The translations under genes were made by a program, and so were the position numbers. The notes under the pieces were generated by a model that ran no database searches, was not told where the DNA came from, and saw nothing but the letters and a program-made list of their open reading frames with translations. 32,841 nucleotides of DNA from NCBI GenBank assembly GCA_030064915.1, contig JASJEK010000078.1, forward strand, positions 1-32,841, given 5' to 3'. The first letter of the stretch is position 1. Each line of letters begins with the position of its first letter. Of the stretch, positions 1,398-32,841 are shown piece after piece. This DNA comes from Xenococcaceae cyanobacterium MO_234.B1. GTDB lineage: Bacteria > Cyanobacteriota > Cyanobacteriia > Cyanobacteriales > Xenococcaceae.

Positions 1398-2495
1398 GTG
1401 GCGAAACCAGCCAAATACCTACTAGTTGGTTCTACAGAAGCTTATAGTGGAAAATCAGCAATTATTTTAGGCATTACTCATCAATTGGCAGAGCAAGGAG
1501 TTAAGGTTGCATATAGTAAACCTCTGGGGACTTGTTTAGATGAAAACTTTGAGGAAATTATGGAAAAAGATGTGAATTTTCTCAAGGAGAGTTTAGGTTT
1601 ATCCGCAGAACAAGTACAGTCTCCACTCTTACGTCTCGATAACACAACTATTGGGAAACGTCTTCAAGGGAAAGACAACGATAACTATTCTCAGGCTCTA
1701 CAAGAATATATCACTCAATTACAAGGAGAAGTTGTATTGTTAGAAGGTCCAGAAACTCTATGGGAAGGAAGTTTATTTGGTCTTTCAACAGAAGATATTG
1801 CTGAGGCGATTAATGCTTCAATATTGTTAGTTTCTCGTTATGATCCTTTGTTATGTGTTTCTAACTTTCTCACGGCTAAAAAAATTCTTGGCGATCGCCT
1901 GATTGGAGTGGTCATTAATGATATTCCCCCGAAACATTTAGAAGAAGTGGCATCTTTAATTAAGCCTTATTTGGAACAACAGAACATACCACTTTTGGCA
2001 ATGATTCCCCAAGACAAGTTACTCAATAGTGTGAGTGTTCGAGAACTAGCAAAAAGACTTGATGCCAAGGTTTTATGTAGAAGCGATCGCCTTGATTTGA
2101 TGGTAGAAAGTCTCAGTATTGGGGCAATGAATGTCAACTCAGCATTAGAGTTTTTCCGTCAGCGAGAAAACATGGCGGTGGTAACAGGAAGCGATCGCAC
2201 AGAGTTACAAATGGCTGCATTAGAGACTTCAACTAATTGTCTAATTCTTACAGGTCATACATCTCCTAAATCTTTTATTATCAGTCGTGCTGAGGATTTG
2301 GAAGTTCCTGTTCTTGCAGTGGATTTTGACACTTTAACCACTGTTGAGATTGTGGATAATTCTTTTGGGAAAGTGCCGATCCATGAACCAATTAAGGTGA
2401 TGAGGATGCGGGAGCTGATGGCACAATATTTTGATTTTGAGAGGCTTAGAGAATATTTGGGTTTAGAGAAGATTCAGTTAACAGCTAATAGCTAA
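1398..2495 (+). CDS. Phosphotransacetylase-family protein (BioD-like NTPase plus DRTGG domain)
   Basis: A 365-residue protein starting at GTG 1398, with a good ribosome site AAAGGAG at 1384-1390. The N-terminal half is a P-loop dethiobiotin-synthetase-like fold with Walker A GSTEAYSGKS at residues 11-20. The C-terminal third is a DRTGG-type domain with the motif SDRTE at residues 265-269, encoded over a HIP1 site. This matches the N-terminal and middle regions of long bacterial phosphotransacetylases, but the catalytic PTA domain is absent. It is therefore probably a nucleotide-dependent regulatory protein rather than an acetyltransferase. Stand-alone proteins like this are widespread in cyanobacteria, but their function is not established. 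Its position 36 bases behind the EbsA-like gene suggests an operon. Confidence 0.75.
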   Translation: MAKPAKYLLVGSTEAYSGKSAIILGITHQLAEQGVKVAYSKPLGTCLDENFEEIMEKDVNFLKESLGLSAEQVQSPLLRLDNTTIGKRLQGKDNDNYSQALQEYITQLQGEVVLLEGPETLWEGSLFGLSTEDIAEAINASILLVSRYDPLLCVSNFLTAKKILGDRLIGVVINDIPPKHLEEVASLIKPYLEQQNIPLLAMIPQDKLLNSVSVRELAKRLDAKVLCRSDRLDLMVESLSIGAMNVNSALEFFRQRENMAVVTGSDRTELQMAALETSTNCLILTGHTSPKSFIISRAEDLEVPVLAVDFDTLTTVEIVDNSFGKVPIHEPIKVMRMRELMAQYFDFERLREYLGLEKIQLTANS

Positions 2496-2560
2496 TAATA
2501 CCTGAGTTCGGAGTTTGGTTCTCTCCAGACATAACGAAAGTAATTGGTTGGAGGCTCATG

Positions 2561-2717
2561 TTAATACCCACTTTCCGCACGTCAAAATGTAGTATATGAA
2601 GATTACTTAATTGGGGTCAGTTGGAGATCCCATTTTACCCAATTGGCGATCGCCAAAATACGAGAAAATATACTACAAAGCATATGACAACTTGACCTGC
2701 GGAAGATGGGTTAATAA
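2561..2717. repeat. MITE-like imperfect inverted repeat
   Basis: About 155 bases framed by imperfect inverted arms: 2561-2596 (core ACTTTCCGCACGTCA, then TGTAGTATAT) and 2668-2714 (core TGACCTGCGGAAGATGGG, preceded by ATATACTACA). The centre holds a HIP1 palindrome extended to TTGGCGATCGCCAA. There is no ORF inside. Outer bases are TTAATACCCA on one side and TGGGTTAATA on the other, compatible with a TA target. It lies between two intact genes and looks like a non-autonomous transposon relic. Confidence 0.55.
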
Positions 2718-2778
2718 TAATTATGGAAACTATTTATAAAAATCAATTTTTGAAGGTTGTAAAGGAGCAATTAACCTC

Positions 2779-2973
2779 ATGAAATTAGAATTTACTGTGT
2801 CGAGTATGGTTTGTGAAGGTTGTGTGGAGACAGTTAAAAAAGCTGTTATGAACCAAGAGCCACAAGCGGAAGTAGTAGTGGATTTAGACAGTAAGAAAGT
2901 AACTGTAGAAACCACCGCAGCCGAAAATGAGATTAAGCAAGCAATTGTGGCTGCTGGACATACTGTAGATTAG
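2779..2973 (+). CDS. Heavy-metal-associated domain protein (CopZ/Atx1-like metallochaperone)
   Basis: A 64-residue single HMA domain. The metal-binding motif MVCEGC places the two thiol ligands at Cys12 and Cys15, and the rest follows the usual ferredoxin-like pattern, ending in an AIVAAGHTVD segment. Such proteins bind Cu(I) or related soft metals and hand them to P-type ATPases. Cyanobacterial Atx1 delivers copper towards thylakoid plastocyanin. The ATG at 2779 follows an AAGGAG ribosome site near 2760. No copper ATPase lies nearby, so the partner is not indicated by context. Confidence 0.85.
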   Translation: MKLEFTVSSMVCEGCVETVKKAVMNQEPQAEVVVDLDSKKVTVETTAAENEIKQAIVAAGHTVD

Positions 2974-3065
2974 CTGTTGGGAAACAAAAGGGAGCAAAAT
3001 AGAGACAGATAGAAACAATTAACCATCATCTTTTCCAATTGAATCAAGGATACCCCTCAAAAAAT

Positions 3066-4229
3066 ATGCTGCAAAAAACATTTTTCTCTTTGAGTCTAGT
3101 ACTAGCTACCTTAATTGTTCCTGAGTCAGCAGTTTCTGCGTTTCCTTTAGAAAGGGTAGAAGTTAATACTCAAGAAAACTTTTCTTTAGATGAACAGTTA
3201 TGGGGGGATTTGTCTCGTCCAGGCGATCGCTCTGCCCTCTTAAAAGCAATTGATCACAGTTTGAGTTATTTGAATAGTCCCAAAGCGGTTAAGGCTTATG
3301 GTCGTTATTCTCGGTCTGATTTTAATTTAGATCGGGTGCGTCGCTCTCTGATTCGCTTTCGTGAATTACTAGTGACAGCTAACTCAGCAGTGGAGTTACA
3401 AGAAAAGGTCAAATCAGAGTTTGTATTTTATCAATCTGTAGGGAAGGATAAGCGGGGGACAGTAGATTTTACTGGCTATTTTGAACCCACTTATGTTGCG
3501 AGTCGGGTTCGTACTGAGGAGTTTCCCTATCCTCTCTATCGTAAACCTGCTAACTTTGAACGCTGGGGACAAAGCCATCCCACACGGCTACAGCTAGAGG
3601 GAAAAGATGGTTTATTGGGCAATAAAAGTATTCTCGCTGGTAACGAGATAGTTTGGTTACGCGATCGCCTAGAAGCTTTTTTAGTGCAAGTACAGGGCTC
3701 GGCAAGATTGCAACTTACTAATGGTAAAACCATGAGTATTACTTACGGAGGCAGTACCAATTATCGTTATACCAGTATTGGGGGAGAATTAGTTAAAGAT
3801 GGGGTATTTGCCAAGGAAGAATTGACCTTACCGAAGTTAATCACTTATTTTCAATCTCGTCCTGAAGCTTTAGATGAGTATTTACCTCGTAATAACCGAT
3901 TTATCTTTTTCTATGAAACCGATGGTAGAGCTCCTAATGGTAGTTTAGGTGTTCCTGTTACAGGCGATCGCTCTATTGCTACGGATAAATCTTTAATGCC
4001 ACCAGGGGCATTAGCTTTTATTGAAGCACCAATTCCCCAAGTTACAGCGAATGGAGGAATAGAAAATCGGATAGTGAGTCGTTATGTTTTAGATCAAGAC
4101 ACGGGAAGCGCGATCAAGGGAGCAGGAAGAGTAGATATTTTTTTAGGAAGTGGCACAGTAGCAGGAGAAAGAGCAGGATTAATTAACGGTACAGGAAAGC
4201 TTTACTATTTACTATTGAAAGATTATTGA
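3066..4229 (+). CDS. mltA: Murein transglycosylase A, MltA family
   Basis: A lytic transglycosylase that cleaves peptidoglycan glycan strands to 1,6-anhydro-muropeptides in the envelope. Starting at ATG 3066 gives 387 residues, beginning with a signal peptide (MLQKTFFSLSLVLATLIVP, then cleavage near AVSA-F). A TTG at 3039 would add nine residues that spoil the signal, so the ATG is preferred. The MltA barrel contains DFTGYFEP and a PNGSLGVP segment. The C-terminal 3D domain carries DTGSAIKGAGRVDIFLG, with the conserved catalytic-type Asp at about residue 345. The next gene's ATG lies five bases after the stop (a TTG alternative would overlap it), so the pair is probably coupled. Confidence 0.9.
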   Translation: MLQKTFFSLSLVLATLIVPESAVSAFPLERVEVNTQENFSLDEQLWGDLSRPGDRSALLKAIDHSLSYLNSPKAVKAYGRYSRSDFNLDRVRRSLIRFRELLVTANSAVELQEKVKSEFVFYQSVGKDKRGTVDFTGYFEPTYVASRVRTEEFPYPLYRKPANFERWGQSHPTRLQLEGKDGLLGNKSILAGNEIVWLRDRLEAFLVQVQGSARLQLTNGKTMSITYGGSTNYRYTSIGGELVKDGVFAKEELTLPKLITYFQSRPEALDEYLPRNNRFIFFYETDGRAPNGSLGVPVTGDRSIATDKSLMPPGALAFIEAPIPQVTANGGIENRIVSRYVLDQDTGSAIKGAGRVDIFLGSGTVAGERAGLINGTGKLYYLLLKDY

Positions 4230-4234
4230 ACCAG

Positions 4235-5353
4235 ATGAAAGCTAGGTTAAATCATGTATTTGTCTTTATTGAAATTTTTGCTCAAGAAGGGGGAATTCAG
4301 TCTTACGTTAAAGATCTTTTCGCAGCCTATCTAGAAATTGCCCAAAAGCATTCTTTGCGGGGAGAAGTGTTTATCTTACGGGATAAAATAGGATGTGACA
4401 ATCCCTATGAAAGAGACTACCTAACTTTTCACTACCTTAAGAGTTTACCCCCCTGGAAAGGGAGACTCAAACTTGCAGTATCTTTATTACAATGTTTGCT
4501 GCTACGTCGTCCCCAACATCTCTACTGTGGACATATTAAATTATCTCCCCTAATTAAATTAATCTGTACTCCCTTGGCTATTCCTTACACTATCCTGACC
4601 TATGGTAAAGAAGTCTGGTCAACTCTGCCAGAGAATCAACGTCAAGCACTGATCCAAGCAGAAAGTATTTGGACAATTAGCCGTTATAGTCGCGATCGCT
4701 TGTGTAAGGCAAATTCAATTGAGCCAGATAAAGTCAGCATCTTACCCTGTATTGTGGATGGGGTTAAGTTTACTCCTGGAGAGAAACCCCAGGATTTAGT
4801 TAATAAGTATGACCTGAAAGATTGTAAAGTCTTGATGACTGTAGCAAGATTGTGGTCAGGAGATATTTATAAAGGAGTCGATGTTACTATTAGAGCCTTG
4901 CCCAAGATTTTACAGGTATTTCCCCAAGTTAGATATTTAATCATTGGTCGAGGAGATGACCGCCCTCGCTTGGAAAAATTAGCTGTTGAATTGGGAGTTG
5001 GGTCCCGAGTTGTCTTTGCTGGATTTGTCCCGACAGAAGAGTTAGTGCATCACTATCGAGTTGCAGATGCCTATATTATGCCTTCCCAAGAGGGATTTGG
5101 TATTGTTTATTTAGAAGCAATGGTTTGTGGTAAACCTGTATTATCTGGTGATGCTGATGGCTCTGCCGATCCTCTACAAGATGGTAAGCTAGGTTGGCGA
5201 GTTCCCCACCGCGATCCTGAAGCAGTAGCTCAAGCTTGTATAGAAATACTGCAAGGAAACGATAAGCGTTGTCAAGGGGATTGGTTACGGCAGGAAACTT
5301 TAAGGAAATTTAGTAAGGAAGCTTTTAAAGAGCAGTTGTTATCTTTAATTTAA
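4235..5353 (+). CDS. Glycosyltransferase family 4 protein
   Basis: A 372-residue GT-B retaining glycosyltransferase. The N-terminal acceptor domain begins with the GGIQSYVKDL loop. The C-terminal Rossmann domain shows MTVARLWSGDIYKGVD, YLIIGRGDD and the EX7E motif (Glu286 and Glu294 in EGFGIVYLE) that binds the sugar nucleotide. The start at ATG 4235 is chosen over TTG 4226, which would overlap the mltA stop codon. Close coupling to mltA suggests joint expression, perhaps for envelope polysaccharide, but the sugar and acceptor cannot be read from the sequence. Confidence 0.85.
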   Translation: MKARLNHVFVFIEIFAQEGGIQSYVKDLFAAYLEIAQKHSLRGEVFILRDKIGCDNPYERDYLTFHYLKSLPPWKGRLKLAVSLLQCLLLRRPQHLYCGHIKLSPLIKLICTPLAIPYTILTYGKEVWSTLPENQRQALIQAESIWTISRYSRDRLCKANSIEPDKVSILPCIVDGVKFTPGEKPQDLVNKYDLKDCKVLMTVARLWSGDIYKGVDVTIRALPKILQVFPQVRYLIIGRGDDRPRLEKLAVELGVGSRVVFAGFVPTEELVHHYRVADAYIMPSQEGFGIVYLEAMVCGKPVLSGDADGSADPLQDGKLGWRVPHRDPEAVAQACIEILQGNDKRCQGDWLRQETLRKFSKEAFKEQLLSLI

Positions 5354-25189: not shown

Positions 25190-25529
25190 CTGTTTTATTA
25201 ATCTTTCTCTAATTAAAATTGTTAGCGTAAAGTTTACGCTAATTTAATGGGGGATTTTACACCCCACTTGCTTTGCTGTTCTCTCCTCCGAAATGGTGCT
25301 GCGCTCCGAGTCTGGCGCGGAACGCGAGGGGCGAGAGCGATCGCGATCACTATTATAAATTACTTCATCCTCTTACCGAGCAATAGTTAGCGGACTTAAT
25401 CCGCTAAGTTAAAACCTTTCCCCCGATCTCGCCGAGGCGAGGCGCGATCGCTCTGGGTCAGGCTACGCCTGGCCCAGAGCGATCGCTCCGCGCGGAAGCT
25501 TCGCTGAGACCACGCAGTGCCTCGCGCCC
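25190..25529. repeat. Non-coding stretch with palindromes and GC-rich islands
   Basis: No gene. It contains a palindrome at 25224-25244 (TTAGCGTAAA, G, TTTACGCTAA), a smaller one at 25387-25407 (TTAGCGGA with TCCGCTAA), and a GC-rich cluster at 25430-25529 with CAGGCTACGCCTG inside inverted copies of GGCCCAGAGCGATCGCTC-like sequence. The first palindrome lies just upstream of the broken transposase gene and may belong to that element's end. Confidence 0.6.
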
Positions 25530-27667: not shown

Positions 27668-28066
27668 TCAATGCTGCTTTTGTTCCAATTCCATCTTGGC
27701 AAAATGCTCCATCAACATCCGATGAATGAAAATGTAACCTCTACCAACCTTTTGCATGAAAATGCGATCATTAGCATAGTTAAGGAAGCGAGCGTAGTTC
27801 CAGGGAATATAGTTTTTATAGTAAAGGACAATACGCAGGCTAAGGTGTTTGATGCTAGATGCTCCACCACTTATTAGCCCTATGATCACTCCGAAAAGTA
27901 TTCCATAAACAATGGCAATAAATAGGTTATTGAAAATCAATCTAAAAATTGATCCCAATATCAATCCACTAATCAGACTGCTTATACCAGCATTAAAGAC
28001 CGATAGCCTGATACTTTGATTTGGTTTACTACTTTCATTTATATCTGCTTGCGTTCTTCTAAATCC
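27668..28066 (-). pseudogene. C-terminal fragment of a NACHT-type NTPase
   Basis: The minus-strand frame, open from about 28066, reads GFRRTQADINESSKPNQSIR, then hydrophobic stretches (LFIAIVYGILFGVIIGLISG). It ends KHLSLRIVLYYKNYIPWNYA, RFLNYANDRIFMQKVGRGYI and FIHRMLMEHFA. This is the signature end of large cyanobacterial NACHT/STAND NTPases with C-terminal membrane helices. The NACHT ATPase core is absent, and the frame meets the recombinase fragment head-on near 28068. STAND proteins often act in phage defence or signalling, so this may be a defence-gene relic. Assignment is from remembered family endings. Confidence 0.7.
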
Positions 28067-28069
28067 ACC

Positions 28070-28330
28070 AAAAAAACCAGTAGAGCAGGAAAACCTTTAA
28101 CCCGTTCAATGGCAGATAAGTTACTGAGGGCTGCTTGTCAGCGGATTGGTGTAGAAGGTGCTAGCACCCATAGTTTTAGAAGAACAGCATTAACTCAGAT
28201 GCACAATGCAGGTATTCCTTTAAGGCATATTCAGGAAATCTCTGGACATAATGATTTGGGAACTTTGCAGAGGTACTTAGAAGTGTCTCCAGAGCAGAAG
28301 AAGAAAGCTGTGTCTGTAATTGGATGGTAG
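28070..28330 (+). pseudogene. Tyrosine recombinase (phage-type integrase), C-terminal fragment
   Basis: It encodes SRAGKPLTRSMADKLLRAAC, then STHSFRRTALTQMHNAGIPL (H-x-x-R box), HIQEISGHNDLGTLQRYLEV (His and nucleophile Tyr) and a stop. The N-terminal core-binding domain and first catalytic Arg are missing. The stop codon TAG at 28328-28330 uses the first G of the outer group II intron, so the original stop was altered or restored by the insertion. It is fused to the NACHT relic on its 5' side. Confidence 0.85.
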
Positions 28331-28993
28331 TGCGATTCGTTTCTCTGAAATGGGTAGTTCTACTCAGGGATAGAGAGCTTCTGTTAAGTAACCGATAAGG
28401 TAGAGTTCGCACTTTAATCCTTAACAGATGACAACTTCATAATCTTGTAAGTGAGTGTTAGTACCCTAGAAAGCACAAGTCTTACTCCTTCGGTACAAAG
28501 GTAAAAGCATATTCCCCAAGGTAGCGACTAGCCATCAATCCTTGAAGCGGGAATAAAAGCGGAAAGATGTCATAGCCTTAATGTAACATCCCGTGAGCAA
28601 GTTCCTATGGATAACGAAAGTGAAGGATGCGATTGAACTATCGTAACAATCAACCAGTGAAATGAGGCTGACACACTGGGAGTCCTAAAAAGGCATTAGT
28701 CAGGGTGATAGTCTGATTACCACATAACTATCTGTACTACCCTAAAACTCGGTGGACAGCACCATCCTAAAGGAACAAATCAAAGATTATGAGGAACGAA
28801 GTAACCCATCTATGTACTCTCAAACTATGGTCGAATTGATGAGTAGTCAGCTAAGACGTAAACTCTACCAAAAGGTAGGTAGTAGATGGTAAAGATTGAG
28901 TCAGAAGCAAATGCCTCATTGTAATGATGAGGATACGCAGACGGACTCACGGTAAGAACGGAATGTATAGCTACAAGTAGCAATGGATAAATT

Positions 28994-29201
28994 ATGAACA
29001 CGGTCTTAAAACCGATGTATAAGTGGAACGAGATCAACTGGCGCAAGCTGGAACGTAACGTTTTCAAGTTGCAAAAGCGGATATACAAAGCGTCACGTCG
29101 TGATGATGTCAAGACAGTTCGCCGACTCCAAAAACTCCTAATGAAGTCTTGGTCTACAAAATGCTTAGCAGTGCGTCGAGTTACCCAAGATAATCAAGGC
29201 A
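28994..29201 (+). pseudogene. Outer intron RT/maturase ORF, exon 1
   Basis: It encodes MNTVLKPMYKWNEINWRKLE, RNVFKLQKRIYKASRRDDVK and VRRLQKLLMKSWSTKCLAVR, then RVTQDNQG. This is the N-terminal RT-0 region of a group II intron-encoded protein. The 69 complete codons plus one base lead exactly to the 5' splice site of the inner intron. Without splicing the frame ends at a TGA (29210-29212). Confidence 0.88.
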
Positions 29202-29503
29202 GTGCGACCTGAAAGGTCAACTAAAACGGGACTCCGCAGTCCCTCTGGGTTTTCTACCCCAGACCTCCGTAGAGTAATCCGTATCTAACGGTACGTCACG
29301 GCTCAGTAGGCAACGAAACAGTCGGAATGCAGACGCTAAAAGTAGCCATAGCTGCCAGGGTTAGGCAGTGAGGAGCAAGGGGGAAAGATGTAGAAGGATG
29401 AACACAGTCTAAGGTATCGACTAAATCATGTCACTTGTCAACGAGCTAAATGACTCCTGGTTTAAGGCTCGAACCAAAATGGTAAATAGGTGGTTGTTAT
29501 GCT

Positions 29504-29509
29504 TGCCTT
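29504..29509 (+). promoter_or_regulatory. Inner intron EBS1 (target-recognition) sequence
   Basis: TGCCTT in a hairpin loop, perfect complement of IBS1 AAGGCA at 29196-29201. Position in the domain I region and placement in a loop fit EBS1. The equivalent site in the intron's own ORF reads ACGGCA, one mismatch. Confidence 0.75.
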
Positions 29510-29807
29510 TCATAACAAAGTAGAAACTTTCATCCCTATCGTGAAATAGATATCCATCCTAACTACATCAGAAACTTTAGTTGATACAACAGGATAAGCC
29601 CAACAGAGTCTAGGAAACGGTCGAATTTCCTAGTAAGCCAAGAGTAATCAAAGCAGAATCTCTGGGGGGTAAGGGATAAGTGAAAAAGCGAACGCCGACT
29701 TGTAATGAGATGGATAGGGGTGGTCATATTTGCCCCTGACCGAAAGGAAAGCAGAATTCACTTGGGTCATATACGAAATAAAAACTTAATCTTAGGAATG
29801 AATCCTC

Positions 29808-31496
29808 ATGAAAAGTTGGATACATCAAACTGATGTAAATGGACATAGGAAACAACTTTCAGACTGGAATCAAGTCAATTGGAAGAAAGCGAGAAAGATT
29901 GTTAATAACCTAAGAAAGCGGATATTTCGTGCGAGAAAACTTGGGCAATGGAAGCAGCTTAGGCGGTTGCAGAAATTGTTACTAAAATCCTACGCTAACC
30001 TACTACTTGCAATAGGACAAATTACTCAACAAAATAACGGCAAGAACACAGCAGGAGTAGATAAGGAGGTGGTTAACACTCCTGAAAAACGAGTAAAGAT
30101 GGTTAATAGTTGGAAAGAAATTACGGCCTCCCCCACAAGGAGAGTATACATTCCCAAATCCAACGGCAAGAAACGTCCCCTCGGTATTGCCACCATCAGG
30201 GATAGAGTCATGCAAGTAATAGTAAAAAACACGCTAGAACCCGAATGGGAATCACAGTTTGAGCCAAATTCATACGGCTTTAGAATAGGCAGAAGTTGTC
30301 AAGACGCCATAGCGCAATGCTTCAATAATTTAGTGGATAATCCACGGGGAGCTAGACATACTTGGGTTCTAGACGCTGATATATCAGGATTCTTCGATAA
30401 CATTGCTCATGAATCCATCCTGACCATGATTGGTACACACCCCGCCAGGGAATCAATCAAAGGGTGGTTAAAAGCTGGATACGTCTATCAGGGAATTAAA
30501 ACCCCCACAGACAAAGGCACACCGCAAGGTGGCCCGATTTCGCCATTATTAGCAAATATAGGGCTACATGGTCTGGAAAAACTGATTAAATCTATCAAAC
30601 TACCCAAAGATAAGTGGGGAAATAGACTAAAACTAGGTTTCGTCAGATACGCGGATGACTTTATCGTAACATCTAGAGACAAAGAAAGTCTTGAAAACGC
30701 CCTAATCCAGATTAAACAATGGTTATCAGAAAGAGGACTGGAAATCAGTGAAGAGAAAACCAGGATAGTTCACATAGGAGACGGATTTGATTTTCTGGGG
30801 TTCAACCTACGCCAATATAACGGCAAACTTTTAATTAAACCTCAAAAAGAAAAAGTGCTGAAATTCTGTAAAGAATTAGGACGCACAATCTCTAGTTGTG
30901 CCACATGGACGCAACAAAATCTTATCCATAAACTAAAACCTATTCTCCTAGGATTCGCTAACTACTACAGAGGGGTTGTTAGTAAGAAAACATTCAGTTA
31001 CATCAATCATCGAGTGACAATGTACCTCTGGCGTTGGGCAAAGCGTAGGCACCCCAACAAAAGAAAAAGATGGGTTAAAAACCGTTACTTCCACCGAATA
31101 GAAGAGAACGAATGGACATTTGCCTGTCAAGGAACTGATAGCAGAGGAAAGAACAAATTCTACACTCTATGCAACGTCAGCAAAACTCCTATAATAAGGC
31201 ACGTCAAAGTCACAGGAAATTACTCTCCTGACGACCCAGAATTAAAGAAATACTGGGAAACCCGCAATAATAAACAAGGAAAGCAATACTGGGCAAAAGG
31301 CTCAAAATATGAGCAAGTAGCTAAAAACCAAAGCTTTAAATGTCCCATCTGCGGGGGATACCTCTTTAACGGTGAAGAAATCGAAACCCATCACATAGTA
31401 CCTGTGGCAAAAGGTGGACTAAACGACGAAGAAAACCTGATGCACTTACACCTAATGTGTCACAAACAGGTACATAACACCAAGTTAAAAGCTTGA
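29808..31496 (+). CDS. ltrA: Group II intron-encoded reverse transcriptase/maturase with HNH endonuclease
   Basis: A 562-residue multifunctional protein. The N-terminal RT-0 region includes QNNGKNTAGVDKEV. RT fingers and palm follow, with RPLGIATIRDR, FEPNSYGFRIGRSC, LDADISGFFDNI, TPQGGPISPLLANI and the catalytic YADD at residues 281-284. The maturase (X) region spans about residues 350-450. The C-terminal HNH domain has CPIC at residues 512-515, HHIVP at 528-532 and a final CHKQVH. It assists splicing, then makes DNA copies at the cut target. The ORF is uninterrupted and catalytic residues are all present. The HNH domain and host lineage fit the chloroplast-like (CL) class of bacterial introns. 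The gene symbol is a general one for such proteins. Confidence 0.95.
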   Translation: MKSWIHQTDVNGHRKQLSDWNQVNWKKARKIVNNLRKRIFRARKLGQWKQLRRLQKLLLKSYANLLLAIGQITQQNNGKNTAGVDKEVVNTPEKRVKMVNSWKEITASPTRRVYIPKSNGKKRPLGIATIRDRVMQVIVKNTLEPEWESQFEPNSYGFRIGRSCQDAIAQCFNNLVDNPRGARHTWVLDADISGFFDNIAHESILTMIGTHPARESIKGWLKAGYVYQGIKTPTDKGTPQGGPISPLLANIGLHGLEKLIKSIKLPKDKWGNRLKLGFVRYADDFIVTSRDKESLENALIQIKQWLSERGLEISEEKTRIVHIGDGFDFLGFNLRQYNGKLLIKPQKEKVLKFCKELGRTISSCATWTQQNLIHKLKPILLGFANYYRGVVSKKTFSYINHRVTMYLWRWAKRRHPNKRKRWVKNRYFHRIEENEWTFACQGTDSRGKNKFYTLCNVSKTPIIRHVKVTGNYSPDDPELKKYWETRNNKQGKQYWAKGSKYEQVAKNQSFKCPICGGYLFNGEEIETHHIVPVAKGGLNDEENLMHLHLMCHKQVHNTKLKA

Positions 31497-31506
31497 AGTA
31501 TGGCTT

Positions 31507-31541
31507 GAGCCGTGTGATGCGATGAGTGTCACGCACGGTTC
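31507..31541 (+). ncRNA. Group II intron domain V (inner intron)
   Basis: A 35-base hairpin starting GAGCCGTG and ending CACGGTTC, the hallmark domain V form, with the catalytic AGC triad at 31508-31510. The lower stem is eight pairs, then a bulge and a five-pair upper stem with loop GATGA. It lies 10 bases after the maturase stop. Confidence 0.93.
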
Positions 31542-31544
31542 TTA

Positions 31545-31582
31545 GGGGGGTGAGGACTGGTAACAGTCCAATCCTACCCGAC
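31545..31582 (+). ncRNA. Group II intron domain VI (inner intron)
   Basis: The hairpin GGACTG...CAGTCC with a GTAA-type loop stands on a lower stem GGGGTGA/ATCCTACCC, in which an unpaired A on the 3' side is the likely branch point. It ends CCGAC at the splice junction. Confidence 0.82.
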
Positions 31583-31746
31583 AGAATACTGCTGGAGTAG
31601 ACAGGGTTAAATCACTCAACAACAGAGAGAGAATAAAACTTGCCAAAGAATTAAAAATCGACGGTAAAACAAGGGCAACTAGAAGGGTTTGGATCCCCAA
31701 ACCTGGAAAAACCGAAAAACGACCCCTTGGAATTCCGACGATGTAG
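31583..31746 (+). pseudogene. Outer intron RT/maturase ORF, exon 2 (truncated)
   Basis: Continues the frame of 28994-29201 after the inner intron: KNTAGVDRVKSLNNRERIKL, then KTRATRRVWIPKPGKTEKRP and LGIPTM, followed by a TAG stop at 31744-31746. Homologues continue KDRA.. into RT domain 1. The spliced product would be 123 residues with no catalytic domain, so the outer intron cannot encode a working maturase. Confidence 0.88.
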
Positions 31747-32009
31747 GCACAATGCACCTCCTTCAAGTAGGCTTTGGGAATAATTAAGGCAATTATGACA
31801 TGAGCTGGATTTTATTCAAAGTAGAATGGCACGCTTGATAAGGGCGATCGCGCTCTGACAAAAAAAGCTTAAAAGTCTGGTATCCATAAGGTTAACCTTT
31901 ATGAGGAGACTTTCGGATATGGGGACTACTAAGAGCCGAGTCCAAGTTTTAGTAGAGAAATACAGTTCATCCATAGGACTACCGTTTCAACAACTATTAC
32001 CATAATCTT
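31747..32009. other. Unassigned DNA after the intron junction, with a hairpin
   Basis: No gene recognised. A stem-loop spans 31871-31913 (arms AAAAGTCT and AGACTTT around a near-palindrome AAGGTTAACCTT). It may be an IS end structure. No transposase lies next to it. Confidence 0.4.
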
Positions 32010-32294
32010 TTATTGCCGACTGGTGATAACCGCTCCGAGCAAGGCTCCTTCGGTAGCGGTTTTGACATGGGAGTTCTGTTCTTTTCTATACCCAACTGTT
32101 TGAGGTAACGAGTGCCATTGCTGTTGGTCTTGGAACACTCGGTTCATCGACAGGCTCAATTGGAGCCACACTGACTGAGGTAAGTTGTGTTCAGCCATGT
32201 AGGTTAACGCTTCACTGCTGAGCACATAGTCTGTTCTGTCTCCTCGCAACAGTTCTGCCAAAATTAATTCGATTCTTACGCCCTGTGGTTTCAA
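32010..32294 (-). CDS. Hypothetical ORF, unrecognised
   Basis: An open frame of 94 codons from a TTG; the frame stays open further upstream to about 32348, where a GAAAGGAGGT ribosome-site-like word occurs but without a standard start at the right distance. The product (for example EALTYMAEHNLPQSVWLQLS, then EQNSHVKTATEGALLGAVIT) matches nothing I know. Codon use is acceptable but the opposite strand also has a partly open frame. The end overlaps a stem-loop at 32028-32061. It could equally be structured non-coding DNA of a decayed element. Confidence 0.25.
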   Translation of the reverse strand: MKPQGVRIELILAELLRGDRTDYVLSSEALTYMAEHNLPQSVWLQLSLSMNRVFQDQQQWHSLPQTVGYRKEQNSHVKTATEGALLGAVITSRQ

Positions 32295-32501
32295 ACCATT
32301 AAATTCAAATACATCTACCTCCGTGGTTACCAGTGACCCGACCTACCTCCTTTCAGTCGCTACGGTCTTGAGCTGGTTCTAACTGCTGGAGAGCTGCAAA
32401 GAGCTAAGAGACTGTTCGTAAATTATTGTAAACAAGCTGGTGTTTCTAAGGGGCAAAGCGTGTTTCATAGAGTCTAGTGTTAGTGGTCCAGCAGCTTATG
32501 A

Positions 32502-32579
32502 ATCGTCCTGCCAGAAAACCATGAGGGGGTTGTTTATATCGCAATGATTCGGTTAATGCTACGGCGTTTAACAGATAAT
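32502..32579 (+). pseudogene. IS5-type transposase C-terminal remnant
   Basis: The frame reads IVLPENHEGVVYIAMIRLML then RRL, close to the final helix of IS5-family transposases (LPE..E..IYLAMIRLMLRRL). A TGA at 32499-32501 precedes it and the catalytic Glu region is absent. A terminal-repeat-like sequence TAAGAGACTGTTCGTAAA lies about 95 bases upstream at 32405-32422, suggesting an internally deleted IS copy. Confidence 0.45.
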
Positions 32580-32841
32580 CGACGAAGTACGAAAATCTCG
32601 TGTTTTATCAATCGGGCGCAGCATCTGGCAACGGCAAATCCTTGCTCTTGTGAGGAGGTAGAATTTTGGCTCTTCCGTAATTCCCGTGGTAGACACTAGA
32701 TATGGTGGGTGGTCAGGTAAGACTAAGTAGTCGGACATAAATTTTGATGACTGTGTTAACTTTTGTAAAATCTTCAAACCCTATTGGAACAAGAGATATC
32801 TGTTTTTACATTTCTTAATACAGTGCCGTTTACTTATGTCC
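32580..32841. other. Unassigned DNA at window end
   Basis: The frame of the IS5-like remnant stays open to a stop at 32697-32699 without recognisable homology. A minus-strand ORF here lacks any family signature. Nothing else can be supported. Confidence 0.3.

Follow-up and report, generated by a model that had tools for sequence, protein, structure and literature searches.

Group II introns that home into other introns have been described in Methanosarcina acetivorans, according to a review (PMC4424553). In Thermosynechococcus elongatus, twintrons are formed by the F3 introns TeI3a-e, which reside in F1 introns (Mohr et al., 2010, PMC2882425). Additionally, the sequential splicing of a Trichodesmium twintron has been demonstrated on RNA, as given in the accessible part of the report (Pfreundt and Hess, 2015, PMC4649490). 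The outer intron of such nests is missed by the intron-finding program of PMC8919778.

Here, a nest of group II introns was analyzed in a 32,841-nt stretch of contig JASJEK010000078.1 from the Xenococcaceae cyanobacterium MO_234.B1, referred to as the window, and its relatives were traced in other genomes. The inner intron probably represents (at a probability of roughly 0.85) a mobile group II intron that encodes an RT and an HNH endonuclease, and whose homing site within other introns' RT genes is formed by the QxNxG^K codons of the RT0 (RVT_N) motif. The anatomy, the exact reading frame, the site specificity, the EBS/IBS covariation, and the independent insertions were all observed directly in the sequences.

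Structure of the nested introns

The features of the nest are listed in Table 1. The preliminary description had placed a second intron inside an outer RT gene that is split after 69 codons plus one base, with a base-for-base restoration of the frame upon its removal, and this was confirmed: the outer ORF opens with the ATG at 28994, and joining position 29201 to 31583 produced an in-frame sequence reading ...VTQDNQGKNTAGVDRVKSLNN...RPLGIPTM, followed by a stop codon at 31744-31746. The peptide across the joint is QDNQG-KNTAGVDR, and the joint itself reads QDNQGKNTAGVDR. As the rejoined product of 123 amino acids matched the RVT_N domain (PF13655) from end to end (1-83/83, E 5.8e-35), with an exact frame and a complete domain across the joint, both exon pieces are parts of a single RT gene, and a derivation from different RT genes was not observed.

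Table 1. Coordinates of the nested introns and their guide and target sequences in the window.
Feature	Position	Strand	Evidence
Outer group II intron, 5' part (GTGCGATTCG start, ribozyme 5' domains, beginning of ORF)	28330..29201	+	
Outer RT gene, piece 1 (69 codons + 1 base = 208 nt; RVT_N/RT0)	28994..29201	+	translation, RVT_N across joint
IBS2 (GATAA) in outer RT gene	29189..29193	+	pairs with EBS2; covaries in relatives
IBS1 (AAGGCA) in outer RT gene, directly 5' of inner intron	29196..29201	+	six Watson-Crick pairs with EBS1
Inner group II intron, complete (GTGCGACC ... CTACCCGAC)	29202..31582	+	ends common to relatives; Rfam domain V/VI at 3' end
EBS2 (TTGTC) of inner intron	29435..29439	+	pairs with IBS2; changes with target in relatives
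EBS1 (TGCCTT) of inner intron, loop of hairpin 29496-29516	29504..29509	+	pairs with IBS1
Inner intron-encoded protein (RT, maturase, HNH endonuclease; 562 aa, intact)	29808..31496	+	Pfam
Domains V and VI of inner intron	31505..31582	+	RF00029, 51.8 bits; fold z-score -3.8
Outer RT gene, piece 2 (K-NTAGVD ... GIPTM, stop)	31583..31746	+	in-frame join

The inner intron was likewise found to be complete, as the preliminary description had held. Its ends, GTGCG at 29202 and GAC at 31582, fit the GUGYG-type 5' and AY 3' termini and are the same in its relatives. The intact protein carries the RVT_N, RVT_1, GIIM, and HNH domains of Pfam as well as the YADD motif, and its best match in the PDB was 6me0 (E 3e-133, residues 17-557). 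Domains V and VI scored 51.8 bits with the Rfam Intron_gpII model (RF00029), for which the cut-off was 40 bits, and this domain V was the only one in the window. The guides paired fully with their targets (6/6 for EBS1/IBS1 and 5/5 for EBS2/IBS2, one pair being G-U), and the hairpin at 29496-29516 folds in a way that leaves EBS1 unpaired. Given the intact protein, domains V and VI, and full guide pairing, the earlier impression that the inner intron looks active seems fair.

The outer intron is preserved only in its 5' part. Its start was also found as GTGCGATTCGTT upstream of the outer RT genes of relatives, for example at position 734 of L153, a locus of genome G475. A scan of the whole window with the Rfam Intron_gpII model identified no outer domain V or VI, and downstream of 31746 neither a further RT match nor a domain V was found; the sequence there matches unrelated repeats. 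The outer intron is dead, in agreement with the preliminary description, since its RT ends after 123 residues and a domain V of its own is lacking from the window. The designation of the locus as a twintron stood only in part: removal of the inner intron does restore the outer RT in frame, but the outer element has lost domains V/VI and the remainder of its RT in the window and is no longer a complete intron. Since its 3' half was lost, the locus is a nested remnant rather than a twintron that splices twice. An intact copy of the outer intron free of the insertion, which the preliminary description had suggested looking for, was not found in the genome (5.3 Mb, 459 contigs), nor was the missing 3' part.

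Several neighboring sequences were also recorded. The region 31747-32841, in place of the lost outer 3' half, carries repeats, with pieces of 74-95% identity on several other contigs. On the 5' side, 28016-28330 encodes a fragment from the C-terminus of a tyrosine recombinase (PF00589, E 1.3e-15), and the outer intron starts within the stop codon of this fragment, with which its first base is shared. A strong G+C-rich hairpin with the HIP1-like core GCGATCGC is located at 25435-25495, where a match to a viral microRNA family was below threshold and surely spurious.

Because of the repetitive nature of group II introns and the draft state of the genome (81% completeness, 459 contigs), the nest might have been created by a misjoining of two intron copies during assembly, and contigs of other drafts do end inside such introns. 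However, the joint is base-exact with proper intron ends and guide pairing, the inner intron occurs as a single copy in its genome, and the same arrangement recurred in independent assemblies, which makes such an artefact extremely improbable.

Recurrence at the same codon in other genomes

A total of 13 insertions of the inner lineage (the window and 12 further, with those of G551 and G487 counted once per insertion) were identified in 11 genomes from at least four cyanobacterial families, and all of them reside at the QxNxG^K site of other group II RTs. In every readable case, the junction follows the first base of the lysine codon in QxNxG-K-xTxGVDG. Nine of these copies were recovered by homology (over 80% identity of the RT or the intron) with the insertion site disregarded, and all nine were found at the RT0 codon. 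Besides the window, they included relatives in Tolypothrix (L019), Richelia UBA3308 (L035), Okeania SIO3B5 (L038), Richelia SL_2_1 (L039), and G308 (L079), as well as 3' ends from G551 and G487 (L181, L180, and L183). No inner-lineage copy away from the RT0 codon was seen among those found.

With a junction pattern applied to 391 genomes of the order, further 5' ends (L147-L153) were obtained from G638, G104 (two), G551, G487 (two), and G475. Because the pattern is strict, the resulting occurrence in at least eight of the 391 genomes represents a lower bound. Four of the genomes, G104, G475, G638, and G551 (L150), entered through this pattern, which takes the site for granted, so that some bias attaches to the total of 13; the other nine are free of it. 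Allowing two mismatches in the 5'-end pattern across 386 cyanobacterial genomes added one copy. When the junction pattern was loosened to ARTGYG, many chance matches appeared in repeat-rich proteins, and the follow-up was restricted to matches of AGTGCGAC/AGTGCGGC with RT-like codons plus three controls, none of which were RT genes (3/3). Viral contigs yielded no relatives, and those on plasmids reached a protein identity of about 63% at most.

In a tree of the RTs, those at the RT0 site formed one clade with a support of 100/100, two rows being short. Several copies (L019, L035, L038, L039, and L149) were decayed or interrupted, and transfer may thus now be rare.

A sister clade with an RT identity of 60-70% was found in TnpB-like, IscB-like, and epimerase-like genes and in the RNA domains of other introns, where the TnpB-like and IscB-like host genes were named by eye from the rejoined ORFs. 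Given these sites in TnpB-like and IscB-like genes and in introns, the wider group may already have favored mobile elements. For two sister-clade introns (L029 and L032), the insertion site is in the domain I region of another group II intron and not in an ORF.

The varied and tolerated places occupied by the sister clade would also suit an ordinary twintron formed by chance, in which a broadly targeting intron landed in common and tolerant intron sequence. This is contradicted by the nine copies recovered blind to the site, all at one RT0 codon in outers that are only 53-82% alike, and by guides that covary with their targets. The recurrence of the same lineage at the same codon in 12 further insertions excludes chance as the source of the observed nest, and an ordinary twintron is disfavored and very unlikely.

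Independent insertions and guide-target covariation

The 5' ends of the inner introns are 80-100% identical, versus 53-82% for the adjoining 200 nt of the outer genes, which fall into two RT classes, QDN and QLN. For example, the pair L035 and L039 shares an inner identity of 99% and an outer identity of 59%. Across the class boundary, in the pairs L035/L039 and L035/L079, the inner 5' ends are 99-100% alike, and the QDN and QLN outers are less than 60% identical beside the junction. Additionally, the lineage is present twice in the single genome G487, each time in a different outer.

Both guides could be read in six introns, and in these, EBS1 and EBS2 pair with the codons of their own target. 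The IBS1/EBS1 sets included AAGGCA/TGCCTT and CTGGGA/TCCCGG, and the IBS2/EBS2 sets included GATAA/TTGTC, CTTAA/TTAAG, and TTAAA/TTTAA. A single mismatch was present in EBS1 of each of L035 and L153, and another in EBS2 of L035. When the guides were reassigned among these six introns, on which the covariation is based, six of the 720 arrangements scored as well, all of them swaps among the three introns that share guides. EBS1 of L150 requires a one-base bulge, and scoring without the bulge still gave 6/720. With EBS2 alone and the addition of L149, 24 of 5,040 reassignments scored as well. Against the RT0 codons of the inner introns themselves, the guides had mismatches in both helices, which would spare the lineage from inserting into itself.

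The single clade of the inner RTs would equally be expected if one ancient nested pair had been inherited or transferred as a unit, with the shared site reflecting a single insertion. Such a descent is hardly compatible with near-identical inners (99-100% at the 5' end) in QDN and QLN outers that are less than 60% identical, with the two insertions of G487 in different outers, or with guides that differ and each fit their own target, and it was given a very low likelihood.

Other nests of group II introns

A complete nest of the lineage was found in G475 (L153). Open frames of 567 codons for the inner ORF and of 553 codons for the rejoined outer RT were observed there. The outer intron begins with GTGCGATTCG at position 734, and 3' of its ORF follows a sequence that resembles, by eye, an outer domain V. 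In principle, this arrangement could splice twice, whereas that of the window could not.

Searching the window's own genome, an assembly of 5.3 Mb in 459 contigs, for matches to the inner protein and the domain V model revealed at least two further nested introns. The nest on contig C54 (L008, 4262-8500) looks complete: a related intron with an RT identity of 48% interrupts the YADD motif of an outer RT (GCAGATGATTTTGTGG^TGATG), rejoining leaves the outer ORF open, and each of the two introns has its domain V. A search of eight genomes with the pattern of this junction found C54 alone. On contig C422 (L009, 1-1011), an intron tail runs directly into an outer RT at SPILANIAL in the RT4 motif. 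A same-looking tail in the same genus (L162, about 2960-5340) occurs at the RT4 sequence QGGV^ISPLL of a different outer RT, for which the rejoined ORF has 595 aa, and the introns with this same-looking tail would represent a second RT-motif specialist.

Okeania (L166) contained a further nest at RT2a (GRSCQD^A), and Tolypothrix (L165) one at FADD^F. The RT0 codon itself is also occupied by a different intron family with a GTGCGGCTCG start and an RT of another class (L154 in G206, 1513-4016). A nest of three layers was found in L039 (2297-6058), where an intron with a start of the outer type (GTGCGATTCG) splits the inner RT of the RT0 lineage at RT2a (GFRIG^RS), and the split intron itself resides in an outer RT.

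In an alignment of eleven RTs, the four non-overlapping blocks of eight residues with the highest conservation scores were QGGVISPL, GKKTAGVD, VRYADDFV, and SFGFRPGR, which are the motifs hit by the nests (RT0, RT2a, RT4, and RT5). As the nests at RT2a, RT4, and RT5 were met while tracing the lineage and not through a systematic survey, their enrichment in the four motifs is suggestive only. We lean towards a broader picture in which RT genes serve as a general homing ground, where several cyanobacterial intron families would be specialized on RT0, RT2a, RT4, and RT5, with guides tuned to each host and a food web of up to three layers.

Proposed mechanism and significance

The inner lineage appears to live off other introns, and retrohoming would be the most likely route of its movement. 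EBS1 and EBS2 of the intron RNA would pair with the 13 nt that encode the RT0 motif, after which the RNA would reverse-splice into the site, the HNH domain would cut the other strand, and the RT would copy the intron. The RT0 motif is conserved in group II RTs and would thus offer a target wherever such introns occur. Copies would have moved between unrelated outer introns with the EBS sequences tuned to each, and splicing of the inner intron would restore the outer RT gene exactly. In the window, the 3' half of the outer intron would later have disappeared, so that the inner intron is intact while the outer one around it is dead. Splicing, retrohoming, strand cutting, and present activity are predicted here from the anatomy together with the established knowledge of group II introns.

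Under this mechanism, a retroelement lineage would aim at the most conserved codons of the replication protein of other retroelements, where a target is guaranteed as long as introns are common, and where the cost to the host should be small. The introns would provide a natural series of EBS/IBS guides and targets for studying intron retargeting, a route by which twintrons arise, and a way to ask whether introns limit the spread of each other. They also serve as a practical warning that some group II RT genes of these genomes that look 'truncated' are in fact parts of a single gene, each half lying on one side of a nested intron.

Comparison with known systems

The closest solved relative of the inner protein, the TeI4h protein of T. 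elongatus (PDB 6me0), has the same layout of RT, maturase, and HNH, while TeI4h belongs to a different intron family and has a different target, in a tRNA-Ile gene (PMC2882425). The Trichodesmium case also involves nested group II introns in a cyanobacterium, although it concerns one twintron, and the accessible part of that report describes no lineage that homes into intron RT genes (PMC4649490). The introns of Methanosarcina, known here through the review (PMC4424553), are archaeal, and the title of the original study names both ORF-less and RT-encoding introns. In contrast, the lineage described here encodes an RT/HNH protein, spans several cyanobacterial families, and is directed at a single RT motif, the codons of which covary with its guides.

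The F3 introns of T. elongatus likewise form a cyanobacterial family that occupies a conserved position within the RT ORF of a second intron family; their EBS/IBS pairing is good, and the inner copies are uniform within diverged outers (PMC2882425). However, they are ORF-less, whereas the inner introns here encode their own RT/HNH protein, and they were reported from one genome as opposed to at least 11. As compared by its description, their site lies between two start codons five codons apart (PMC2882425), in contrast to the conserved RT0 motif that is hit here in diverse RTs. As with Methanosarcina and the F3 introns, the ORFs of other introns were entered repeatedly at one conserved site, here in 13 insertions. 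In the literature, which was covered in part, no description was found of an RT-encoding lineage that is spread across cyanobacteria and directed at a conserved motif of the RT. Hence, while homing into intron ORFs was already known, such a lineage looks like a new form of it.
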